DNA from: Bacteroidia bacterium
GTDB lineage: Bacteria > Bacteroidota > Bacteroidia > J057
Reading direction: 5' to 3'
DNA length: 64,000 nt
Assembly (NCBI GenBank): GCA_030430575.1
Contig: JAUIKF010000011.1
Coordinates: forward strand, 62,001-126,000
Part shown: one piece after another, positions 4,734 to 34,690 of the stretch
Layout of the letters: the number at the start of each line of letters is the position of its first letter
How positions within the stretch are numbered: position 1 is the stretch's first letter
Notes under the pieces: model-generated
What the model was told of the DNA's origin: nothing
Database searches by the model: none
The model's input: the letters and a program-made list of their open reading frames with translations, nothing else
Position numbers and translations under genes: made by a program

Positions 4734-4807
4734 TGGTAAATCGTTTTGCCTCTTGGACGACTGGGCCAAACAAAACGATAGGATTTTTGCAGAAAAAAGA
4801 AGAAAAA

Positions 4808-4872
4808 CCACAGATTATCCAGATTCCCACAGATTTTCTTCTTTAATCCGTGTAAATCTGTGTAATCTGTGG
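4808..4872. repeat. Inverted array of 9-10-mers (AATCTGTGN type)
   Basis: Left units CCACAGATT, ATCCAGATT, CCCACAGATT; spacer TTCTTCTTT; right units AATCCGTGT, AAATCTGTGT, AATCTGTGG. Same design as 3741-3802. It lies in the leader between the sigma factor and SRPBCC genes, where it could fold in the shared transcript. Confidence 0.85.
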
Positions 4873-5745: not shown

Positions 5746-5840
5746 GCACGGATTACCCACAAATCAGCCCTACAAATCCAGAAATCCGCGCCAGCTGCTT
5801 TAAAGACAATTCCTATTTTCATTTTAACTTTCATTTTAAC
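5746..5840. repeat. Degenerate nonamer motif plus two 12-mers
   Basis: 5746-5793 has the GCACGGATT/ACCCACAAA start and AAATCCGCG end of the nonamer element but weak pairing. 5817-5840 holds two exact copies of TTTCATTTTAAC. It lies between the sigma-factor start and the end of the GH109-like gene. Confidence 0.55.
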
Positions 5841-5850
5841 TTTGATTCCC

Positions 5851-7206: not shown

Positions 7207-7503
7207 ATAGTTTGATGTTTTTTAACAAAATTGTGCCTGATAGTTCATTAGCAAAATAGGGCATTTTTATACAAAATGTAGATCCGTGCTCCCTTTTTTA
7301 AAAAGGGTCATTTTTTTTACTGCAATTATTAATGAATTATCAATTCTTATAGATTTCTGGCCCAAGGCCACGGCTTGGAATTCGCCTAAATTCCTGTGAT
7401 ATTAGAAATGATTTCTAGAAAAAACTAGTGCCACTACGCACGTAATGCATTTTTACACAGATGAGTGAGCTGTCCATTGGGCGGCTCTTTTTTTTTGGGG
7501 GGA
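7207..7503. other. Intergenic spacer with short palindrome
   Basis: An AT-rich spacer upstream of the GH109-like gene. The only structure I see is a palindrome at 7291-7307 (CCCTTTTTTAAAAAGGG), too short-stemmed and AT-rich to call a terminator with confidence. No reading frame here looks real. The spacer continues as the octamer array at 7504. Confidence 0.5.
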
Positions 7504-7543
7504 AATGAAAAAATGAGTAGATGAATAAATGATAAAATGGCAA
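7504..7543. repeat. Octamer tandem array (ATGAnnAA type)
   Basis: Period-8 words ATGAAAAA, ATGAGTAG, ATGAATAA, ATGATAAA, ATGGCAAG, directly upstream of the four-helix gene. Bases 7510-7531 are identical to 7976-7997 downstream of the gene, a 22-base perfect direct repeat bracketing it. Confidence 0.85.
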
Positions 7544-7588
7544 GAAATTCCGTATATTATCATTTGTTTATTTCCAAAGCCCCATATC

Positions 7589-7966
7589 ATGAAATACAAT
7601 CAAACTGAGAAAGGAGCCTTCATTGAGAAGATGAAGCTCAAGACCAAGCAATTTGCGATTGACATTATTCACTTCTGCGATGCTTTACCCAAATCACAAG
7701 CCTGTCGCACCATTTCCTTCCAACTTATCAGATCAGCCACCTCAACGGGTGCAAATTATCGAGCATCTTGCCGTGCCAGATCCAAGGCTGAATTTCGTTC
7801 CAAAATCAGTATTACTGTGGAAGAAGCAGATGAAAGCCAGTATTGGCTAGAGATTCTTCAGGGAACTCAGGTGAATTTTGATCGTGAGGAGTTAAAGAAT
7901 TTGCTATTAGAGAGTAGTGAAATCCTCGCAATAGTTACAAAAGCAAGAAAGAGTGTTTCTGAATAA
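7589..7966 (+). CDS. S23/IVS-type four-helix bundle protein
   Basis: 125 residues from the ATG at 7589 (MKYNQTEKGAF). An upstream start at 7529 would translate the octamer repeat. The sequence carries the family signature: KTKQFAIDIIHFCDALPKS, then ISFQLIRSATSTGANYRASC, RSKAEFRSKISITVEEADES and a C-terminal helix with LLLESSEILAIVTKARKS. Members (TIGR02436-type) form pentameric four-helix bundles related to the bAvd accessory protein of diversity-generating retroelements and occur as intervening sequences in 23S rRNA genes. No reverse transcriptase or rRNA is present here, so this is a stand-alone copy. The repeat bracketing is unusual and may reflect how it was inserted (inference). Confidence 0.88.
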   Translation: MKYNQTEKGAFIEKMKLKTKQFAIDIIHFCDALPKSQACRTISFQLIRSATSTGANYRASCRARSKAEFRSKISITVEEADESQYWLEILQGTQVNFDREELKNLLLESSEILAIVTKARKSVSE

Positions 7967-7967
7967 A

Positions 7968-8048
7968 GAAATGATAAAATGAGTAGATGAATAAATGGCA
8001 AAATATCCCACATTTTATCATTTATTCATTTTATCATCTAATCATTTC
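7968..8048. repeat. Inverted octamer array between convergent genes
   Basis: The left 30-base arm (7968-7997: ATGATAAA, ATGAGTAG, ATGAATAA words) is mirrored by a right arm (8019-8048) of reverse-complement words (TTATTCAT, TTTATCAT). It fills nearly the whole gap between the four-helix gene stop and the TamL stop, so it may act as a transcription barrier for both. Confidence 0.85.
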
Positions 8049-8050
8049 CC

Positions 8051-10630
8051 CTAAAACGGATACCCTATCCCGAGTTGATATTGGAAGCGGCTGCCGCCGA
8101 GGTCATTGCGGAAATTCCGAATGACCCATCCCTTGTGGATGGGATCATCCACTAAGTCGGGCGCAAATAGCTGCTGTGCAAGGTCGATGCGGATGATCAG
8201 GAAAGAAAAATCCAGCCTAAATCCTACGCCTACATCCCAGCCAAAGAAAAAGTTTTTCCACCTCAAAGTAGAGCGAGGATCGTCGGGGTCATCTCCGAGT
8301 TCCTCGGCGAGTTCTATTTTTCGGTTGGCTTGGCCAGGGTTGTTGAACCAGACATTCCCCACATCACTGAAAATCGCCATTTCGAGGTAAGACCATACAT
8401 CAAATCTCAGTTCTGCATTGGCCTCGATCAAGTATTCCCCCCCAGGCGCCAGCAGGCTACTGAAAGAGGTATTGGCATCACTGCCTTGGATATCTTCCAA
8501 GGACAATTTTCCTGGGCCTAGTGTGTTGGACTGCCAGCCGCGCATGGAGGTGGAACCACCACTATAAAAGCGACTCTGTGGCGGGACTAGCTGGGTGAAA
8601 TTATAGGCTGCGGAGCCGCCTATGGCACCCCTGAGCACGAGTTCGACGCCTTTTTTCAGCGGAAACATCGCCCGACCCTCCATCGATAGTTTGATATACT
8701 GCCCATAAGAAAGCCCTGCCGCGTCCTGACCGATAAAGAGTGTATGATCTTCTGGTGTATTTTCGGTCAGCAACTCTATGAGGTAAGGGACATTACCGCC
8801 CCCTTCATAGTTAAAGCGGAGCATCGTGGTAGGGAATAACTTCGAGGTCCCATAATCTGAAATGGTATATCCCAAATTCAAGCGAGAATTGAACCGAGAA
8901 GTAAAAGAACGGCGGATGGCAGAAGGTAAGCTATCTACAACTTCCGCCTTGAACGTCGAGTCAAGGGTCACATCGATATACTCGATGGACATGGGCGAGA
9001 GCTGTGTGCGCTCTTTATCACTCAAGGTTCGATTGAACCATCGATAGCCCCAATTGCCATTCAGGGTAAATCGGCTAAACTCTTCGCGCTGCTCCCGTAG
9101 CCCGACCACCGAAAGGTTAGTCACAGGTCTATATCTATTTAGGTCACGATTTTCGACGGGAAGCCACCTTTTGGGAAAAGGTAGTAGAAAACGAGGAAAA
9201 TTCAGTTCTCCTTTTCCCTGAATTTGCCAAAAGACCTTCTGTGAAGAGTCATTCACTGGATAAAGGCCAACATCCCCTGACCCGCTCAGGACCAGGAGTT
9301 CAGATTTCTTAAAAGTGTTTTTGTTCCGAAAACTCAACGAAGCACCCCCTATCGGCAAAATCGCAGAAGCGGCAATATCATTGGTATAAGCTTCTGTACC
9401 GGCCCGCAATTGAAACTGACGCGTCATCCGAGATTCTATGAAGACTGCAAGCTTGCCTGTTGAATCGTCCACTTGGTAATTGACAATTACATACTGCAGC
9501 ATACTCAATTCCTGAAGGCGACTTTGCGTCCTACGCGCATCTTGCTGCTTATATTTTTTGCCCAGCTTAAAATAGACCCTTTCAGCCAAAAAGTTATAGT
9601 TCACCCGATTCACCAACATGGGAGAAACCTTGAATAAGATTTCACAAGAATCAGTTAAATGCTTTTGCCTGACGTCCAATTCTTCTCTCTTCTCAGCAGT
9701 CAAAGCTGGGCCATAAAGATCTATCAATTTACCATCTCGATCTCGGTTATAATCATTCGTTTTAAGTTCCACAGTGATCCTATCAATTGTATATCGCTGC
9801 GGATCATTCTCCATTTCTACCACTAGATCAAGCCACTTGGTCCCATCTGACGGAGGTGTTTTTTCTACCAAAATGGCTGTCGGCAATAGGCCCTCACCTT
9901 TCAGAAAGGTATCTACCCGAAAAGTGATTAAGTTGGGATTCATCGCAAAATACCCATCGTCCCGTAGCAATTGGGTAATGCGGTTCCGTTCGGCAGCCAA
10001 AGAGGTGTACGTGAACCGATTACCCGCTTTTATAGAAGCATTTTTTGGATGACTCTTATAAAAATGGGCGAGCCTTTGATTCTCAAATTCAGCATAAATC
10101 CGCCTGATATGAAAAGGCTGCCCTTCCTGAACGTCAAAATAGACATTGGCTTTTCGTCCATCAAACCAGTTGTCTATGGTGTCAATACGTGGGGTAATTT
10201 GGGTATCAAAATAGCCATTTGCGGCATAGGCATTGAGGAGGTTGAGGCTATCTCGTGTGATGCTTTCTTTATTAAGCAAAATAGGTGGTTCCCCCAGATT
10301 ATATTTCAGCCATTTGATCGTTCTTTCGGCAAAGGCTTTGCGCTTAGGGTGCTTGAGGTATAGGCGTTTCAAAAGAGAGGAATCTCTTTCCAGCGTAGTG
10401 CCAAAGTTATAGATGGAAAGGTAAACCTTGGGACTGATCATCCGGCGATTGGGCTTGGTGCGAATAGCGGAAGTGAGGTCAAGGTCTTTTGCGCCTTTGA
10501 TGACGACTGGATTTTTGAGTAAATATTCACCAGGCTGCACATAACGCGTCACATGACAGGACGTTGCTATCCAGCAGATGCCTACCATCAGTAGCGTGAT
10601 AAGGGGGTATTTTCTTAGCTTTGTCTCCAT
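8051..10630 (-). CDS. tamL: TamL: lipid-anchored BamA/TamA-family outer-membrane protein
   Basis: 859 residues from the ATG at 10630 (METKLRKYPL). A start 5 codons earlier is possible. A lipoprotein signal ends IATSC, with the lipidated Cys followed by HVTRYVQPGEYLL, typical of the Bacteroidota TamL variant. POTRA-like modules fill about residues 30-430 (YFDTQITPRIDTIDNWFDGR, then VYFDVQEGQPFHIRRI). A 16-strand barrel follows, with the conserved FYSGGSTSMRGWQSNTLGPG segment near residue 700 and a C-terminal Phe (GIGYPF). The family inserts outer-membrane proteins together with TamB. No tamB gene is in the window. Its start codon overlaps that of the divergent RNA methyltransferase gene. Confidence 0.9.
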   Translation of the reverse strand: METKLRKYPLITLLMVGICWIATSCHVTRYVQPGEYLLKNPVVIKGAKDLDLTSAIRTKPNRRMISPKVYLSIYNFGTTLERDSSLLKRLYLKHPKRKAFAERTIKWLKYNLGEPPILLNKESITRDSLNLLNAYAANGYFDTQITPRIDTIDNWFDGRKANVYFDVQEGQPFHIRRIYAEFENQRLAHFYKSHPKNASIKAGNRFTYTSLAAERNRITQLLRDDGYFAMNPNLITFRVDTFLKGEGLLPTAILVEKTPPSDGTKWLDLVVEMENDPQRYTIDRITVELKTNDYNRDRDGKLIDLYGPALTAEKREELDVRQKHLTDSCEILFKVSPMLVNRVNYNFLAERVYFKLGKKYKQQDARRTQSRLQELSMLQYVIVNYQVDDSTGKLAVFIESRMTRQFQLRAGTEAYTNDIAASAILPIGGASLSFRNKNTFKKSELLVLSGSGDVGLYPVNDSSQKVFWQIQGKGELNFPRFLLPFPKRWLPVENRDLNRYRPVTNLSVVGLREQREEFSRFTLNGNWGYRWFNRTLSDKERTQLSPMSIEYIDVTLDSTFKAEVVDSLPSAIRRSFTSRFNSRLNLGYTISDYGTSKLFPTTMLRFNYEGGGNVPYLIELLTENTPEDHTLFIGQDAAGLSYGQYIKLSMEGRAMFPLKKGVELVLRGAIGGSAAYNFTQLVPPQSRFYSGGSTSMRGWQSNTLGPGKLSLEDIQGSDANTSFSSLLAPGGEYLIEANAELRFDVWSYLEMAIFSDVGNVWFNNPGQANRKIELAEELGDDPDDPRSTLRWKNFFFGWDVGVGFRLDFSFLIIRIDLAQQLFAPDLVDDPIHKGWVIRNFRNDLGGSRFQYQLGIGYPF

Positions 10631-11431: not shown

Positions 11432-11467
11432 GACCTGTAACAGATTTTCTTCAATCTGTTACAGGTC
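11432..11467. terminator. Palindrome downstream of the TrmH-family gene
   Basis: Perfect 15-base arms (GACCTGTAACAGATT/AATCTGTTACAGGTC) with a 6-base loop, preceded by a smaller TTGGCTTTGAAGCCAA hairpin. It has no clear T-run. It sits between convergent genes. Confidence 0.65.
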
Positions 11468-11495
11468 AAAGCTACGCGACATACTTCACATGCCC

Positions 11496-15737: not shown

Positions 15738-16433
15738 TTATTCTTTGGTAAGGATCATTTCAGTGATTTTACCATCGATATTTACAGCTAGGGATTTAAT
15801 ACGATTAATATTTTTTTTCTGATCTTTTAGGTATTCGAGGTACCTGCCGATCGTAGTAGGACGATCGTAGTCTGTTGCGTTTCGATTTTCATTAATGATA
15901 ATCAAAACGGGGATATCTTTTGAAGCAAATAGTTTCATGCATTCTTCGATATGAGAATTGGCAGTGGTTATACTACTTGCATTAGCGATTTGATTAAAAT
16001 AGTTGGCGATACGCGGTTTTCGCGCCTCCGCCTCGGCTTGCGCCTTGGCGAGGGCCTCCTCCCGCTCGCGGGCTTTTCGCGCGCGCTCCAGCTCCGCCCG
16101 CTCCTGGACCAGCTTAGCTTCGACCTGCCTGATCAACTCTTTGATCTCAGGATCGTTTATGTTTTGATTTTTGACCAAAGCCAATTGCCGCTCCTTCTCC
16201 TCCAGGGTGAGTCCACTATTATCATCTAGGAGGGTAAGCAAAATGGCTTTAGCTTTGGCAATGCGATCTGCTTCCATGGCGGCTTCCACGGCTTGTTGTT
16301 CCTGCAGTAGCTTCTTTTTAGACTTACACGCTGGACTGCTCAGCATAGCCACCCCTAGCATGACTATTAATCCAACCCTAGCCAACCGTTGCATACCATT
16401 CATTTGAATTTCTGAATGCCTTTTGTTCATCAT
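15738..16433 (-). CDS. Coiled-coil lipoprotein, function unknown
   Basis: 231 residues from the first ATG. Starts at 16403 (MNGMQRLARVG) or 16394 would give a more compact signal. A lipobox-like LSSPAC precedes KSKKKLLQEQQ, so the Cys is probably lipidated. Residues ~45-145 are a long charged helix (ERAELERARKAREREEALAK), a likely coiled coil reaching from the membrane. A compact C-terminal domain follows (DIPVLIIINENRNATDYDRP, then IGRYLEYLKDQKKNINRI), which reads like an NTF2-like or DUF fold of the kind seen in its downstream neighbours. It is the first gene of the minus-strand exported-protein cluster. The composition of the coiled-coil stretch is GC-rich at the DNA level. Confidence 0.75.
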   Translation of the reverse strand: MMNKRHSEIQMNGMQRLARVGLIVMLGVAMLSSPACKSKKKLLQEQQAVEAAMEADRIAKAKAILLTLLDDNSGLTLEEKERQLALVKNQNINDPEIKELIRQVEAKLVQERAELERARKAREREEALAKAQAEAEARKPRIANYFNQIANASSITTANSHIEECMKLFASKDIPVLIIINENRNATDYDRPTTIGRYLEYLKDQKKNINRIKSLAVNIDGKITEMILTKE

Positions 16434-18572: not shown

Positions 18573-18608
18573 AATGATAAAATGAATAGATGAGTAAATG
18601 ATAAAATA
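18573..18608. repeat. Octamer tandem array (ATGAnnAA type)
   Basis: ATGATAAA, ATGAATAG, ATGAGTAA, ATGATAAA, the same word family that flanks the four-helix gene at 7.5-8.0 kb, here only 6 bases after the TPR gene stop and without a matching inverted arm. Confidence 0.8.
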
Positions 18609-18660
18609 TTGCTATTACTCCCATATCTGGGGTTTTTCTCAATATTTATTCTTTTGTTTC

Positions 18661-18687: not shown

Positions 18688-18788
18688 TAAATTTCCTGAT
18701 TTAGCAGATTAGGACCACTAATTTTATCTTGATTAGCCTTCAATTTTCATCCTCTTTTATTCAAAATTCACCATTCAATCACTCAAAA

Positions 18789-19547
18789 TTATTCCCCCCC
18801 AACACCTATCTCTGATAGCCCCATTTTGCCCCTTCCTCCTGAAAGCAAGATATTTCCATAAGTCGCATACCCTTCCCATGGCGTCACGAAGTTGGGGGTA
18901 GTTTCAGTGGCTTTTTGGAAAAAGGCCCATTGCGTGACAAGACTGCTGGTCTCGTCGACATATACCCAATACTTATTGCCAGGTGTGCGGCCTACTCCTT
19001 TGAAAGTAAGTTGGAGGACATCAGCAAGTTGTCCAGCTTCTGTGCTGTCCTTGCCTACATAGGTGAGCGTCACGCCCGAGTCCTTGAGCTTAAACGGCAT
19101 GACGAGCCAGTAGCTGTCATTGATCCAGATAGATTCGGTACGGCGGAGGTATTTATCCAAGGAATCTTTGGAGGTTTGTTGGACGCCGTCAAGCCAGACT
19201 TCGCCCTGGCCTGTATTCATGTCTAAATTAGCTATGAAAGAAGAATCCAAATAGGTCACCCCTACCTTATTGTTTTGCTTGTCCCAATTCAAGGCCCGTC
19301 GTCCAAAGAAAGTCCACTGGATGGTCTGCGTCTCATCCCATGCCTTGCGGCCGCCCATGGCTTCCATGACCTCATCTGCGATGGCGATAGCCAGCGAGTC
19401 GGAGCCTTCCAGGTCAAAACCCGCCGCAGGCGGGTTGGGGTCGGTGGCTTCGGAGGCGGTGGCTTGGTTTGTGTCAGCAGTAGGCTGAGGAGAACAGGCC
19501 AGAAGGCTGAGGGCGAGGAGGGAGATAATCCAGCAGTATGTTTTCAT
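18789..19547 (-). CDS. LolA-like-fold lipoprotein of unknown function
   Basis: 252 residues. Lipoprotein signal MKTYCWIISLLALSLLACS with the Cys at 18, then a disordered linker rich in Thr, Ala and Pro. The folded part starts AIADEVMEAMGGRKAWDETQ and continues with long strands (WTFFGRRALNWDKQ, YWLVMPFKLKDSGVTLTYVG, KYWVYVDETSSLVTQWAFFQ). That is the half-barrel pattern of LolA-like or DUF6503-like envelope lipoproteins. I am not certain of the family number. It ends with a glycine-rich tail. It is divergent from the ATPase gene with a 47-base gap, so the two may share a control region. Confidence 0.75.
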   Translation of the reverse strand: MKTYCWIISLLALSLLACSPQPTADTNQATASEATDPNPPAAGFDLEGSDSLAIAIADEVMEAMGGRKAWDETQTIQWTFFGRRALNWDKQNNKVGVTYLDSSFIANLDMNTGQGEVWLDGVQQTSKDSLDKYLRRTESIWINDSYWLVMPFKLKDSGVTLTYVGKDSTEAGQLADVLQLTFKGVGRTPGNKYWVYVDETSSLVTQWAFFQKATETTPNFVTPWEGYATYGNILLSGGRGKMGLSEIGVGGE

Positions 19548-20917: not shown

Positions 20918-22838
20918 ATTGTTACAGTTGATCTCTCGTAATGACCAAATTCATTATAGTGAATTGGTAGATGCTTTGGGCTACCTAGAACCAGAATTAC
21001 CTGCAGCTTTCTTACTCGGTGTAAATTCAAATCGACTTGGTGATGCATTTCTCTTTGAGCTTAACAGGCTATATCCAGAGGCTTATGTATTAACAAATCC
21101 TCCTCCTAAACGTGTATTACGGGACGTTTTTGCGACATTGCCCAATAGTCAATCCCTCCTGATTTTCCCTTTGTATCAACAAGATGCTGCTCATGATTCT
21201 GCCCTAGCCGCAGAACTTCTTTTTCATAGAGACAGCATTGTTCACGATAATCTTCGTCTTCTCATAATAGCCAGCGAGGGGCTTTATACAGCTATTCAAG
21301 ACAATGCATATGACTTTATTTCTGCTACCAACTTTAGGCATCTTTTCAAAGATCAGGCAGCGGCGGTGGAGGAGGATTTGAGTCATTATGGAGGGAAGTC
21401 AGCAGAAGAAATAGCGTATGAAGAGGCAAAGGCTGATTATGAGGACAATAAATCAGGGAAAGCATCAACCCAGATGCGTAAAGCTTTTGAACTAGCAAAG
21501 GCTGCCTATAACATTTCTAGGTTAGATGAATCCCTTATTGCCTTAAAGGAAACCATTCAAAAGGCTCAAGAACTCAAAGACGATAAATATCTAAGCCTAG
21601 CCTTGAGCAACATTGGTTTGATTTATTCTGTAAAGGGGGAACTTGATATGGCATTAGCGAATCACTTAAAGGCATTGGATCTGCATAAACAAATTGGCTT
21701 TTTAGAGGGGGAATCATCTACTCTGGGCAATATCGGTTTAATATACTCTAGCAAAAGTGAATTCGATGAGGCGTTAGTGTATTACCGCCAAGCATTATCG
21801 ATCAATAAACAAATCGGTTATTTACAAGGAGAAGCGAATCAATTGGGTAATATTGGTTTGATCTATTCCCATAAAGGAGAACTCGATAAGGCACTGGAGT
21901 ATCAATCGGATGCATTAGAGATTTATAAACAAATTAACTTCATCAAGGGAGAAGCCTCTGCCTTAGGCAATATCGGCTTGATTTATAAAAACAAAGGCGA
22001 ATTCGACGAGGCGTTAAAGTATTTCTTGAAAGCTTTGAACTTAAACAAACAAATCGGTTACCTACAGGGAGAAGCTAATCAATTTGGAAATATCGGTTTG
22101 ATCTATTCCGACAAAGGCGAATTTGACGAAGCATTGAAGTATCAATCGCGGGCATTGGAGATCTATAAACAAATCGATTTCTTACAAGGGGAAGCCACTG
22201 TCTTGGGCAATATCGGCGTGATTTATAAAAACAAAAGCGCACTCAATGAAGCATTAAAGTATTTCTTCCAAGCCTTGGAGTTACACAAGCAAATAGGTGA
22301 TCTAGAGGGAGAAGCCAACCAATTGGGTAATATCGGCTCTATGTATGTTGCAATAGAAAAACTCGACGAAGCATTGAAGTATTACTTACATGCATTAGCG
22401 ATCAGTAAACAAATTCACTACTTAAAAGGAGAGGCTACTGACTTAGGTAATATTGGTGTGGTTTATAAAACTAAAGGTGAACTCGATATAGCATTGGAGT
22501 ATTTCTCGAAAGCCTTAGAATTACATGAACAAATCGGCTCTCTACAGGGAGAAGCCTCTGACTTAAACAATATCGGCACGATCCATTTCGATAAAGGTGA
22601 AGTTGATGAAGCATTGAAGTATTTCATTCAATCATTAAAACTTTACAGACAAATCGGCTATCTACAGGGAGAAGCCAATCAATTGGGCAATATCGGGGTG
22701 ATATATAGAACCAAAGGCGAACTCGACGAAGGGGAAAAATACCTCCGCCAAGCACTCGAAATCGCTGAAACCATTGGATTTGCCGAAGGCATCCTAAAAT
22801 TCAAAGCAGAACTTGAAGCCCTCAAAAATCCCTCCTAA
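20901..22838 (+). CDS. TPR sensor-like protein with degenerate NTPase-like N-terminal domain
   Basis: 645 residues. The ATG at 20901 lies inside the end of the ATPase gene. Residues ~1-170 form an alpha/beta domain (AAFLLGVNSNRLGDAFLFEL, LLIFPL, then LLFHRDSIVHDNLRLLIIAS and DNAYDFISATNFRHLF). This resembles the P-loop-derived domain, without a working Walker A, that precedes TPR arrays in many bacterial STAND-type proteins. Residues 232-631 are ten exactly 40-residue kinesin-light-chain-type TPRs with consensus LGNIGLIYKNKGEFDEALKY and KQIGYLQGE. The pair reads as a STAND sensor split into ATPase and TPR chains (inference). No effector domain is visible in either protein. Confidence 0.88.
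   Translation: MLQENELLQLISRNDQIHYSELVDALGYLEPELPAAFLLGVNSNRLGDAFLFELNRLYPEAYVLTNPPPKRVLRDVFATLPNSQSLLIFPLYQQDAAHDSALAAELLFHRDSIVHDNLRLLIIASEGLYTAIQDNAYDFISATNFRHLFKDQAAAVEEDLSHYGGKSAEEIAYEEAKADYEDNKSGKASTQMRKAFELAKAAYNISRLDESLIALKETIQKAQELKDDKYLSLALSNIGLIYSVKGELDMALANHLKALDLHKQIGFLEGESSTLGNIGLIYSSKSEFDEALVYYRQALSINKQIGYLQGEANQLGNIGLIYSHKGELDKALEYQSDALEIYKQINFIKGEASALGNIGLIYKNKGEFDEALKYFLKALNLNKQIGYLQGEANQFGNIGLIYSDKGEFDEALKYQSRALEIYKQIDFLQGEATVLGNIGVIYKNKSALNEALKYFFQALELHKQIGDLEGEANQLGNIGSMYVAIEKLDEALKYYLHALAISKQIHYLKGEATDLGNIGVVYKTKGELDIALEYFSKALELHEQIGSLQGEASDLNNIGTIHFDKGEVDEALKYFIQSLKLYRQIGYLQGEANQLGNIGVIYRTKGELDEGEKYLRQALEIAETIGFAEGILKFKAELEALKNPS
21594..22793 (+). repeat. Ten 120-bp coding repeats with a 240-bp higher-order unit
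   Basis: The 40-codon TPR units alternate. Units beginning ANQ (3, 5, 7) are followed by units beginning AS or AT (4, 6, 8). Units 3 and 5 share YQSxALEIYKQI, and units 4 and 6 share the KYF start and KQIG end. This indicates duplication of a two-repeat block. Confidence 0.85.
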
Positions 22839-23105: not shown

Positions 23106-23744
23106 ATGCACTCTACCGAACCAAAAGAAAGCGGTGCCAAGACCCGCATTCTCGAGCAATCTATGGCGCTTTTTATGAAGCGCGGCGTGCGCAGTGTCAC
23201 GATGGATGATATCGCCCAGGAACTGGGAATCTCCAAAAAGACTATTTATCAACACTTTGATAACAAGGCGCATATCGTTCGAGAAGTAGCCCAGGCACAT
23301 TGCCGCCAGAATGAAATGGAGTTTGAAGCCATTGCAAAAGATGCCAAAAATGCCATTGACGAATTGGTGAAAATCATGCAGTGGCTAGTAGAGACGCTGA
23401 AGGAAATGGCGCCTAACCTGATCTATGAAATTCAAAAATATTACCCAGATGCTTGGCAGACTTTTCATCACTATGAAAATGAATTTGTGCTAGCAGAGGT
23501 TAAAGACAATTTACGACGGGGCATTGAAGAAGGGCTTTATCGGCCTGATATCAATGTAGAAATCGTGGCTCGGATGCGCGTAGCTCAAGTAGATATTGGT
23601 TTTGATGAAACTATTTTTCCAAGGAAAAAATTCGGTCAACTGCCCGTCCAAGTAGAAATGCTCAAATTCTATATGCATGGCATCACGACCCCCAAGGGCA
23701 AGGAAGTCTTAGAATCTTACTTTCAACAGTATGACCTGGACTAA
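23106..23744 (+). CDS. TetR/AcrR-family repressor of the efflux operon
   Basis: 212 residues from the ATG at 23106 (MHSTEPKESGAKTRIL). The frame opening at 23040 would translate the candidate operator. The N-terminal helix-turn-helix is canonical: ILEQSMALFMKRGVRSVTMD, DIAQELGISKKTIYQHFDNK. The C-terminal ligand-binding helices (LVKIMQWLVETLKEMAPNLI and onward) are divergent, as is normal. It is the first gene before tolC, adaptor and RND genes on the same strand, so it most likely controls them and itself. The ligand is unknown. Confidence 0.9.
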   Translation: MHSTEPKESGAKTRILEQSMALFMKRGVRSVTMDDIAQELGISKKTIYQHFDNKAHIVREVAQAHCRQNEMEFEAIAKDAKNAIDELVKIMQWLVETLKEMAPNLIYEIQKYYPDAWQTFHHYENEFVLAEVKDNLRRGIEEGLYRPDINVEIVARMRVAQVDIGFDETIFPRKKFGQLPVQVEMLKFYMHGITTPKGKEVLESYFQQYDLD

Positions 23745-23748
23745 AGAA

Positions 23749-23864
23749 GGTTCTAGGTTCTAGGTTCTAGGTTCTAGGTTCTAGGTTTTAGGTTCTAGGA
23801 GTAAGAAAACGCCTGATTTAAAGACATACATTGACCATTAACCATTTACAATTAACCATTACCT
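23749..23864. repeat. Two heptamer arrays in the tetR-tolC spacer
   Basis: 23749-23797 holds seven units of GGTTCTA (six exact, one GGTTTTA). 23830-23864 holds five units related to ATTAACC (ATTGACC, ATTAACC, ATTTACA, ATTAACC, ATTACCT). The second set reads GGTTAAT on the other strand, so the two are partly inverted relatives. They start 5 bases after the tetR stop and lie upstream of the tolC-family start. Confidence 0.9.
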
Positions 23865-25363: not shown

Positions 25364-25487
25364 TTTTAGGTTCTACGTTTTAAGTTCTAGGATCGCTCAT
25401 CTACATATAACCCTGAACTCTGAACTCTGAACTCTGAACTCTGAACACTCCAATAAAACTTAGAACCCTGAACATAAAACTTAGAAC
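25364..25487. repeat. Inverted heptamer arrays between tolC-type and adaptor genes
   Basis: The left part, 25364-25391, is TTTTAGG, TTCTACG, TTTTAAG, TTCTAGG. After about 20 bases come four exact CTGAACT (25413-25440), then ATAAAAC, TTAGAAC, CCTGAAC, ATAAAAC, TTAGAAC (25453-25487). TTAGAAC is the reverse complement of GTTCTAA, so the halves can pair. It fills the whole 140-base spacer inside the efflux operon. Confidence 0.85.
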
Positions 25488-34562: not shown

Positions 34563-34596
34563 AAAAAAAGCCTCTCCAGTGATGGAGGGGCTTTTT
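34563..34596 (+). terminator. Rho-independent terminator
   Basis: A-run, GCCTCTCCA / TGGAGGGGC stem and CTTTTT, about 20 bases after the stop of the CxxC-bearing paralogue. Confidence 0.9.
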
Positions 34597-34599
34597 GAG

Positions 34600-34676
34600 T
34601 TTAGGGTTTAGGGTTTAGGGTTTAGGGTTTAGGGTTTAGGGTTTAGGGTTTAGGGTTTAGGGTTTAGGGTTTAGGG
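34600..34676. repeat. Perfect (TTTAGGG)11 tandem repeat
   Basis: Eleven exact copies of TTTAGGG, 77 bases, with no interruption. The unit is identical to the plant-type telomere repeat, but it sits between two bacterial paralogues directly after a terminator, and other heptamer arrays occur in the window. Confidence 0.98.
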
Positions 34677-34690
34677 AAATAGTTTTTCTG

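Follow-up and report, generated by a model that had tools for sequence, protein, structure and literature searches.

An S23 gene between octamer arrays

The window, that is, the whole 64,000-nucleotide stretch of Bacteroidia DNA analysed here, carries a forward-strand gene for a 125-residue protein of the S23/23S_rRNA_IVP family at positions 7589 to 7966, antisense to both flanking genes. The protein matches TIGR02436 (E = 5.9e-22) and PF05635 (E = 2e-13), each above the curated cut-off, and no other family in Pfam or NCBIfam. A longer frame opening at 7529 was rejected as the gene, as it starts inside an array and its additional region lies beyond the reach of the family match. AlphaFold2 predicts a four-helix bundle (pLDDT 93.7), so that the S23-type four-helix assignment made in the first-pass annotation was borne out by both family and fold. 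The nearest solved structures retrieved with Foldseek are the S23 proteins 2rld (E = 2.1e-5) and 2gsc (E = 2.7e-3), followed by a plant inhibitor and Avd (PDB 4dwl and 8ub7), the two Avd structures each giving a TM-score of 0.71 of the query with weak Foldseek E values (0.02 and 0.08).

Repeat and pattern analysis placed an array of octamers of the form (A/G)ATGANN(A/G) upstream of the gene (left arm, 7503 to 7540, forward strand), accompanied by a weaker inverted arm at 7554 to 7571 (reverse strand). Immediately downstream, a direct copy of this array (7968 to 8004, forward strand) is followed by an inverted octamer array (right arm, 8011 to 8048, reverse strand), which is complementary to both of the others. 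The perfect 22-base direct repeat reported earlier is exact at 7510 to 7531 and 7976 to 7997, the only two window positions of this 22-mer; both copies belong to the octamer arrays, and the downstream one does run on as an inverted array. The two direct arrays had been called identical, which is true of the 22 shared bases, but outside these they differ. The outer arms are mutually complementary across 46 nt (7494 to 7539 with 8011 to 8056, 83%), thus placing the S23 gene in a loop. Given its weaker inverted arm, the upstream side is an imperfect hairpin, as is the downstream one. The sense strand from 7494 to 8056 folds 5.3 standard deviations better than shuffled sequence (z = -5.3).

With up to two mismatches allowed, the three-unit octamer pattern matched the window 15 times, against 0.63 expected from shuffles. 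Pattern matches define a solo array of the octamer, devoid of an S23 gene, at 18573 to 18609 (forward strand). Solo runs of motifs that bracket other S23 genes of the same genome also occur in the window: ATTCAAAATTC of locus L005 at 18740 to 18790 (reverse strand; genome-wide match C12:80759), GGTTCTA of L001 at 23744 to 23801 (forward strand; array scan and arm matches), and an array resembling the L004 unit, TTTCATTTTAA, at 5817 to 5847 (forward strand; arm matches). Further long solo heptamer arrays lie at 34590 to 34680 (GTTTAGG, about 11 copies) and 25406 to 25453 (AACTCTG, about 5 copies). A 120/240-base tandem repeat at 21807 to 22731 probably represents repeated coding units.

Paired arms at S23 loci and in other organisms

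The source genome has six PF05635 matches, the sixth of which (L006) is short and under the cut-off. As the first-pass annotation had asked of the other S23 genes in this genome, all six are bracketed, each by runs of one short motif that is unlike between loci (assessed by eye); the L002 arms consist of a motif that is longer and irregular and do not form a clean tandem run. Bracketing was measured by local alignment of the 250 nt upstream with the 250 nt downstream. L006 failed the S23 profile of this analysis and was left out of these flank statistics, its flanks being hand-added to the dispersal count alone. In the family of the source organism, all 13 measured S23 loci (5 of them from the source genome) scored 15 to 53 in one orientation, whereas 182 control genes of the same loci peaked at 16.5 and had their 99th percentile at 13.7. 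This set leaves out two sub-cut-off matches, L041 and L045, the latter devoid of an array by eye. Both adjoin sequence that resembles, by eye, the target of a diversity-generating retroelement, and these weak PF05635 matches may be Avd genes.

The same comparison was extended to the class. Of its first 42 loci, 28 exceeded the 95% point and 12 the 99% point of 558 controls. Among 129 distinct S23 loci, all kept and mostly the strongest S23 matches among those listed, the inverted score had a median of 16.5 versus 9.0 in 745 neighbouring control genes (p = 1.5e-41); it lay above the control 95% point in 90 and above the 99% point in 24, and about a third (39) failed to exceed the 95% point. Direct matches were less common (19 of 129 above the 95% point). 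Pairing is specific to the locus: own flanks averaged 16.52 versus 8.81 when permuted (2000 permutations, sd 0.149; z = 52), the own downstream flank was the best of the 129 for 66 loci and among the best five for 94, and arms of different S23 loci remained unmatched, with a cross median of 8.5, as in controls. Of the 16 control genes that scored at least 16, 7 are within 150 bp of an S23 gene. Control genes without brackets rule out bracketing as a general gene trait in these genomes.

The arms are periodic as well as paired. Of the 129 loci, 65 had a periodic stretch upstream and 53 had one downstream, with period 7 in 42 and 41 and period 8 in 16 and 9, respectively; 94 and 118 of the 745 controls had such a flank, likewise mostly of period 7. 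At 70 loci, G exceeded C in 63 upstream arms and fell below it in 3, the arm ended a median of 30.5 nt 5′ of the start codon, and the next arm lay 9.5 nt 3′ of the stop. Stop codons in all frames were not convincing as the cause of the period, with frequencies of 36% versus 33% for permuted units upstream and 24% versus 14% downstream. Where the neighbours are collinear, S23 genes lie on their strand 96 times and on the opposite one 3 times (controls, 353 versus 58), a bias that is compatible with a transcript-linked route as well as with selection and favours neither.

Bracketing extends beyond the Bacteroidota. When one genome per species was scanned, with the best 80 of 589 loci kept and 79 measurable, flank scores exceeded 12.5 at 31 of 49 loci from Bacteroidota and 20 of 30 from other phyla, grouped by record title. 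S23 genes on plasmids were mainly from cyanobacteria, going by the names of 21 of 23 records; 8 of the 13 plasmid loci examined scored above 12.5, and clear heptamers were seen in Nostoc, Pseudanabaena, and Calothrix. According to the annotations, some cyanobacterial plasmid copies (L395, L400, and L401) lie within CRISPR operons on the operon's strand, in the arrangements cas6-S23-cas4 on two plasmids and cas10-S23-cmr3. A phage origin of S23 genes was discarded, since a search of the phage collection for S23 yielded no match.

Brackets are not confined to S23 genes. In 23 of these genomes, GxxExxY genes (PF13366; L404 to L433) also have brackets, made of another motif, with an own inverted median of 16.0 versus 8.5 across loci and own scores of at least 15 in 16 of 27 loci usable out of 30. 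A CACAGA-like motif was present on both sides at 15 of 27 GxxExxY loci, as opposed to 2 of 129 for S23 and 18 of 745 for controls; these counts are descriptive, the word list having been written after viewing the GxxExxY flanks. Period 7 or 8 on either side was found in 84 of 129 S23 loci, 1 of 27 GxxExxY loci, and 156 of 745 controls. Since GxxExxY arms are unlike the S23 arms of the same genomes, the type of arm seems to track the protein family. The stretch at 4807 to 4871 of the window (ACCACAGATT / TAATCTGTG) may be a gene-less copy of a GxxExxY-type bracket.

Occupied sites, empty sites and dispersed repeats

Operon junctions at which S23 genes recur, assigned by purpose-written sequence motifs, permitted comparison of arms at one position. 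At junctions of genes that we take to be sufB and sufC, own pairing was 16.1 versus 9.6 across loci for the arrangement sufB-S23-sufC (7 loci); at those of the presumed fadB and fadA, it was 16.7 versus 10.1 for fadB-S23-fadA (5 loci), single cross-locus values reaching 19.5 at both sites. Similarly, when S23 proteins with no less than 50% identity were compared (219 pairs), complementarity averaged 17.3 for own and 10.4 for cross pairing, with some of the closest pairs retaining similar arms. Higher own than cross pairing, both at shared sites and in similar proteins, suggests that the arms evolve fast and jointly. The S23 gene adjoining comM in both species of the genus (L002/L060 and L044/L067) has related, diverged repeats, altered alike on either side.

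The first-pass annotation had proposed that the 22-base repeats mark insertion between pre-existing copies. Empty sites speak against this: across the fadB-fadA, sufB-sufC, and comM 3′ sites, 43 of 45 S23-free junctions had no period-7/8 array at threshold, indicating that arrays mostly arrive with the S23 gene. For fadB-fadA, 24 junctions were recognised among 30 loci, 4 with S23, and the remaining 20 were without an array at threshold; 5 of these 20 carry another insert, the L106 junction shows by eye a short heptamer-like run (a borderline array), and L103 and L125 show by eye palindromes of the CACTAAG/CACATAG kind. The inserts in L101 and L118, from S23-free genomes, look nucleotidyltransferase/HEPN-like by eye and are devoid of arrays. 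For sufB-sufC, 26 junctions were found among 30 loci, 7 with S23, and 1 of the other 19 has a solo hairpin array (L135). Eight comM 3′ flanks could be read among 12 loci, 2 with S23; one of the other six (L164) has an array by eye, yet no S23 gene was detected in its genome. At the window's own site, the single array that had been expected 3′ of tamL in the empty state was absent in all 12 relatives, one of which (G001) has another gene following tamL. A lag-8 score at tamL in L055 was dismissed as an array, the sequence being A-rich instead. We prefer to see in the 22-base repeat the terminus of an element and not a scar.

Abundance of arrays elsewhere in the genome also followed the presence of S23. 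Sixty sampling regions were checked and contained no S23 genes. Strict period-7/8 arrays numbered 0 in S23-free genomes (14 genomes, 20 regions, 390 kb) and 20 in S23-rich ones (20 regions, 396 kb), with none in either set after shuffling; a threshold one step laxer gave 0 versus 31, and two steps laxer 9 versus 42 (shuffled, 6 and 9). In a second comparison, of 58 genomes from which S23 genes and 600 bp around each had been cut out, the 15 S23-free genomes had no array in 409 kb, and density rose with S23 copies from 1.9 per 100 kb (1 to 2 copies) to 3.7 (3 to 5), 4.1 (6 to 8), and 6.8 (at least 9). The correlation (Spearman 0.60, p = 6.5e-7) ignores phylogeny. Within the family of the source organism, arrays were absent from 115 kb of three S23-free genomes and from 35 kb of two single-copy genomes, and numbered 21 in 327 kb of three genomes with 2 to 6 copies.

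Dispersed arrays resemble the S23 arms of their own genome. The arms of each of the six S23 loci of the source genome match 2 to 6 further places in 163 kb of that genome; those of 124 foreign loci match a mean of 0.32 places in the same 163 kb (median 0; maximum 7, from the same genus). Genome-wide, the window octamer has 770 overlapping matches versus 2 for the reversed pattern, the ATTCAAAATTC unit 199 versus 17, and the TTCTAGG unit 130 versus 0. Every S23 gene of the source genome thus seems to be matched to its own scattered repeat family. The first-pass annotation had allowed for a chance link should the arrays be lacking at other S23 loci and scattered elsewhere. Half of this is the case: the other five loci each have a unit of their own instead of the octamer, and the octamer matches are scattered. 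However, the first 100 of the 770 matches make up 43 places, and the sole pair 300 to 1200 bp apart surrounds the window S23 gene. With this locus the only paired one of the 43 places listed, the bracket appears special to the gene. Solo arrays (n = 63) were nearer to the S23 arms of their own genome than to others (10.05 versus 7.69, p = 5e-6), a likeness to which common base composition may add, and 15 of them had an inverted arm within 200 nt (random flanks, 0). The Geobacter genome that carries L358 has 24 matches of the unit of this locus, 22 of them at the S23 locus itself; this indicates little dispersal there and counts against generality. In L278, one heptamer array occurs twice (11441 to 11472 and 16157 to 16188) in similar, seemingly coding sequence, and arrays may therefore enter genes too.

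Interpretation and relation to known systems

Arm anatomy, pairing of the arms, scarcity of arrays where the gene is missing, the relation to copy number, and the agreement of units in the source genome are observed features. They lead us to regard stand-alone S23 genes as, probably, residents of IVS-like elements whose arms are arrays, each gene having a dispersed repeat family as its counterpart, much as RAYT genes have REP sequences. Gene and arrays would form one element, a four-helix-bundle gene between inverted tandem arms with a unit usually of 7 or 8 bases, in which the arm sequence would be private to each element and the period and mutual complementarity of the arms common to all. 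The S23 protein, presumably an oligomer with a fold related to that of the diversity-generating retroelement protein Avd, may recognise its own array as a hairpin or single strand, and host machinery may then copy the bound array into intergenic gaps. The S23 gene would thereby be the resident gene and the solo arrays its gene-less copies, in parallel to RAYT and REP. In operons, the stem of such an element may in addition be cleaved in the manner of a 23S rRNA IVS. Two arms can be kept alike by copying from one template or by palindrome correction, and both fit the S23 arms. From the sequence patterns above we infer binding of the array by the protein, movement of the copies, and any role of RNA, as well as mobility of the S23 gene itself. 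A broader proposal, which we put forward tentatively, is that stand-alone S23 proteins drive heptamer and octamer repeat families in a sequence-specific manner, as a two-part mobile system that operates without a transposase and whose arms, private to each element, change in concert; the excess of seven-base repeats in bacteria would be its footprint.

Spread of the arrays alone, by slippage, template switching at palindromes, or another mover, with S23 genes landing in hairpin loops as passengers, is the more serious of the alternatives, and we deem it rather unlikely. It would account for arrays being far more numerous than S23 genes (the first 100 of 770 octamer matches fall at about 43 places), for the 15 of 63 solo arrays that consist of an array and an inverted array with no gene, for the two solo arrays that occupy known S23 sites in genomes without S23 there, and for an array and its inverted partner at most 50 nt apart at 7968 to 8048. 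Against it, 43 of 45 empty junctions and 409 kb of S23-free genomes contained no array; dispersed relatives of the arms at all six source-genome S23 loci are something that passengers allow and do not require.

Selection for pairing would instead be at work if the arrays were host signals, such as RNA-processing or insulating hairpins in operons, alongside which S23 is merely tolerated. The location of the junctions within operons, the S23 strand bias (96 of 99), and stem pairing retained despite sequence change agree with such a role, as does cleavage of the Coxiella IVS stem by RNase III at the first heptamer, described in the excerpted text of PMC4990558. Nonetheless, control genes of the same operons lack paired arms, S23-free genomes manage without arrays, a hairpin needs no fixed period of 7 or 8, and the units show no stop-codon pattern, all of which make host signals improbable. 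Chance or a low-complexity background would draw on the frequency of arrays in the source genome and on the one-sided arrays at 94 (upstream) and 118 (downstream) of 745 controls, yet it is contradicted by control genes of the same loci, by the permuted pairings, and by the S23 locus alone being paired among the 43 octamer places listed, and is extremely improbable.

A system of resident S23 genes and dispersed arrays would join two old puzzles, the unsettled S23/IVS genes and the unexplained excess of bacterial heptamers, and may help to explain the seven-letter repeats of bacteria. The repeat families are candidate targets for each S23 protein, and the source genome, with its six proteins and as many units, offers a built-in test of specificity. 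Excerpts of the work on the Coxiella 23S IVS report tandem heptamers (GACAGAT) directly upstream of the S23 open reading frame, with neither the function nor the route of movement of S23/IVS genes settled (PMC4990558), and the IVP domain is called uncharacterized in excerpts of a study of CPR rRNA insertions (PMC11270868). The window locus shares with the 23S rRNA IVS an S23 frame within a stem of complementary ends; unlike the IVS, it lies between two protein genes, outside rRNA, and S23 arms here vary by locus and have dispersed solo relatives. None of the S23 loci examined for a 23S rRNA location had two of ten 23S words, so that the tie to a true IVS depends on the literature.

Heptameric repeats are described, in the portions available, as over-represented in bacteria without a detailed account, the examples being GGGAATC of Xanthomonas together with comparable repeats of Nostoc (PMC4692102). 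Beggiatoaceae, Cyanobacteria, and five Bacteroidetes are reported to carry TAACTGA (PMC4679880), and Geobacter metallireducens to have four heptanucleotides in 49 elements (PMC2700814). From these excerpts, the published families resemble the solo arrays in being intergenic, tandem, partly in inverted pairs, dispersed in many copies, and unexplained in cause, and differ in that no resident gene is proposed for them there. S23 and four helix go unmentioned in the available text of PMC4692102 and PMC4679880, as does S23 in that of PMC2700814, and a literature search of titles and abstracts, outside subscription journals and preprints, returned only the Coxiella paper as linking S23 genes with hepta- or octamer repeats. 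Diversity-generating retroelements are comparable in protein fold, which the window protein shares with Avd (4dwl and 8ub7; weak E values). Insertion sequences and MITEs differ, in that S23 arms have no conserved sequence among element copies (cross median 8.5). In REP/RAYT systems, a resident gene lies between palindromes and many gene-less copies of the repeat occur in the same genome. The S23 elements are alike in having a resident gene flanked by arms and gene-less solo copies in the same genome, and dispersed repeats akin to those flanking the resident gene are present in the source genome. They differ in that S23 is a four-helix bundle instead of a Y1/HUH tyrosine transposase and in that the repeats, tandem 7- or 8-mers, come in many different sequences.
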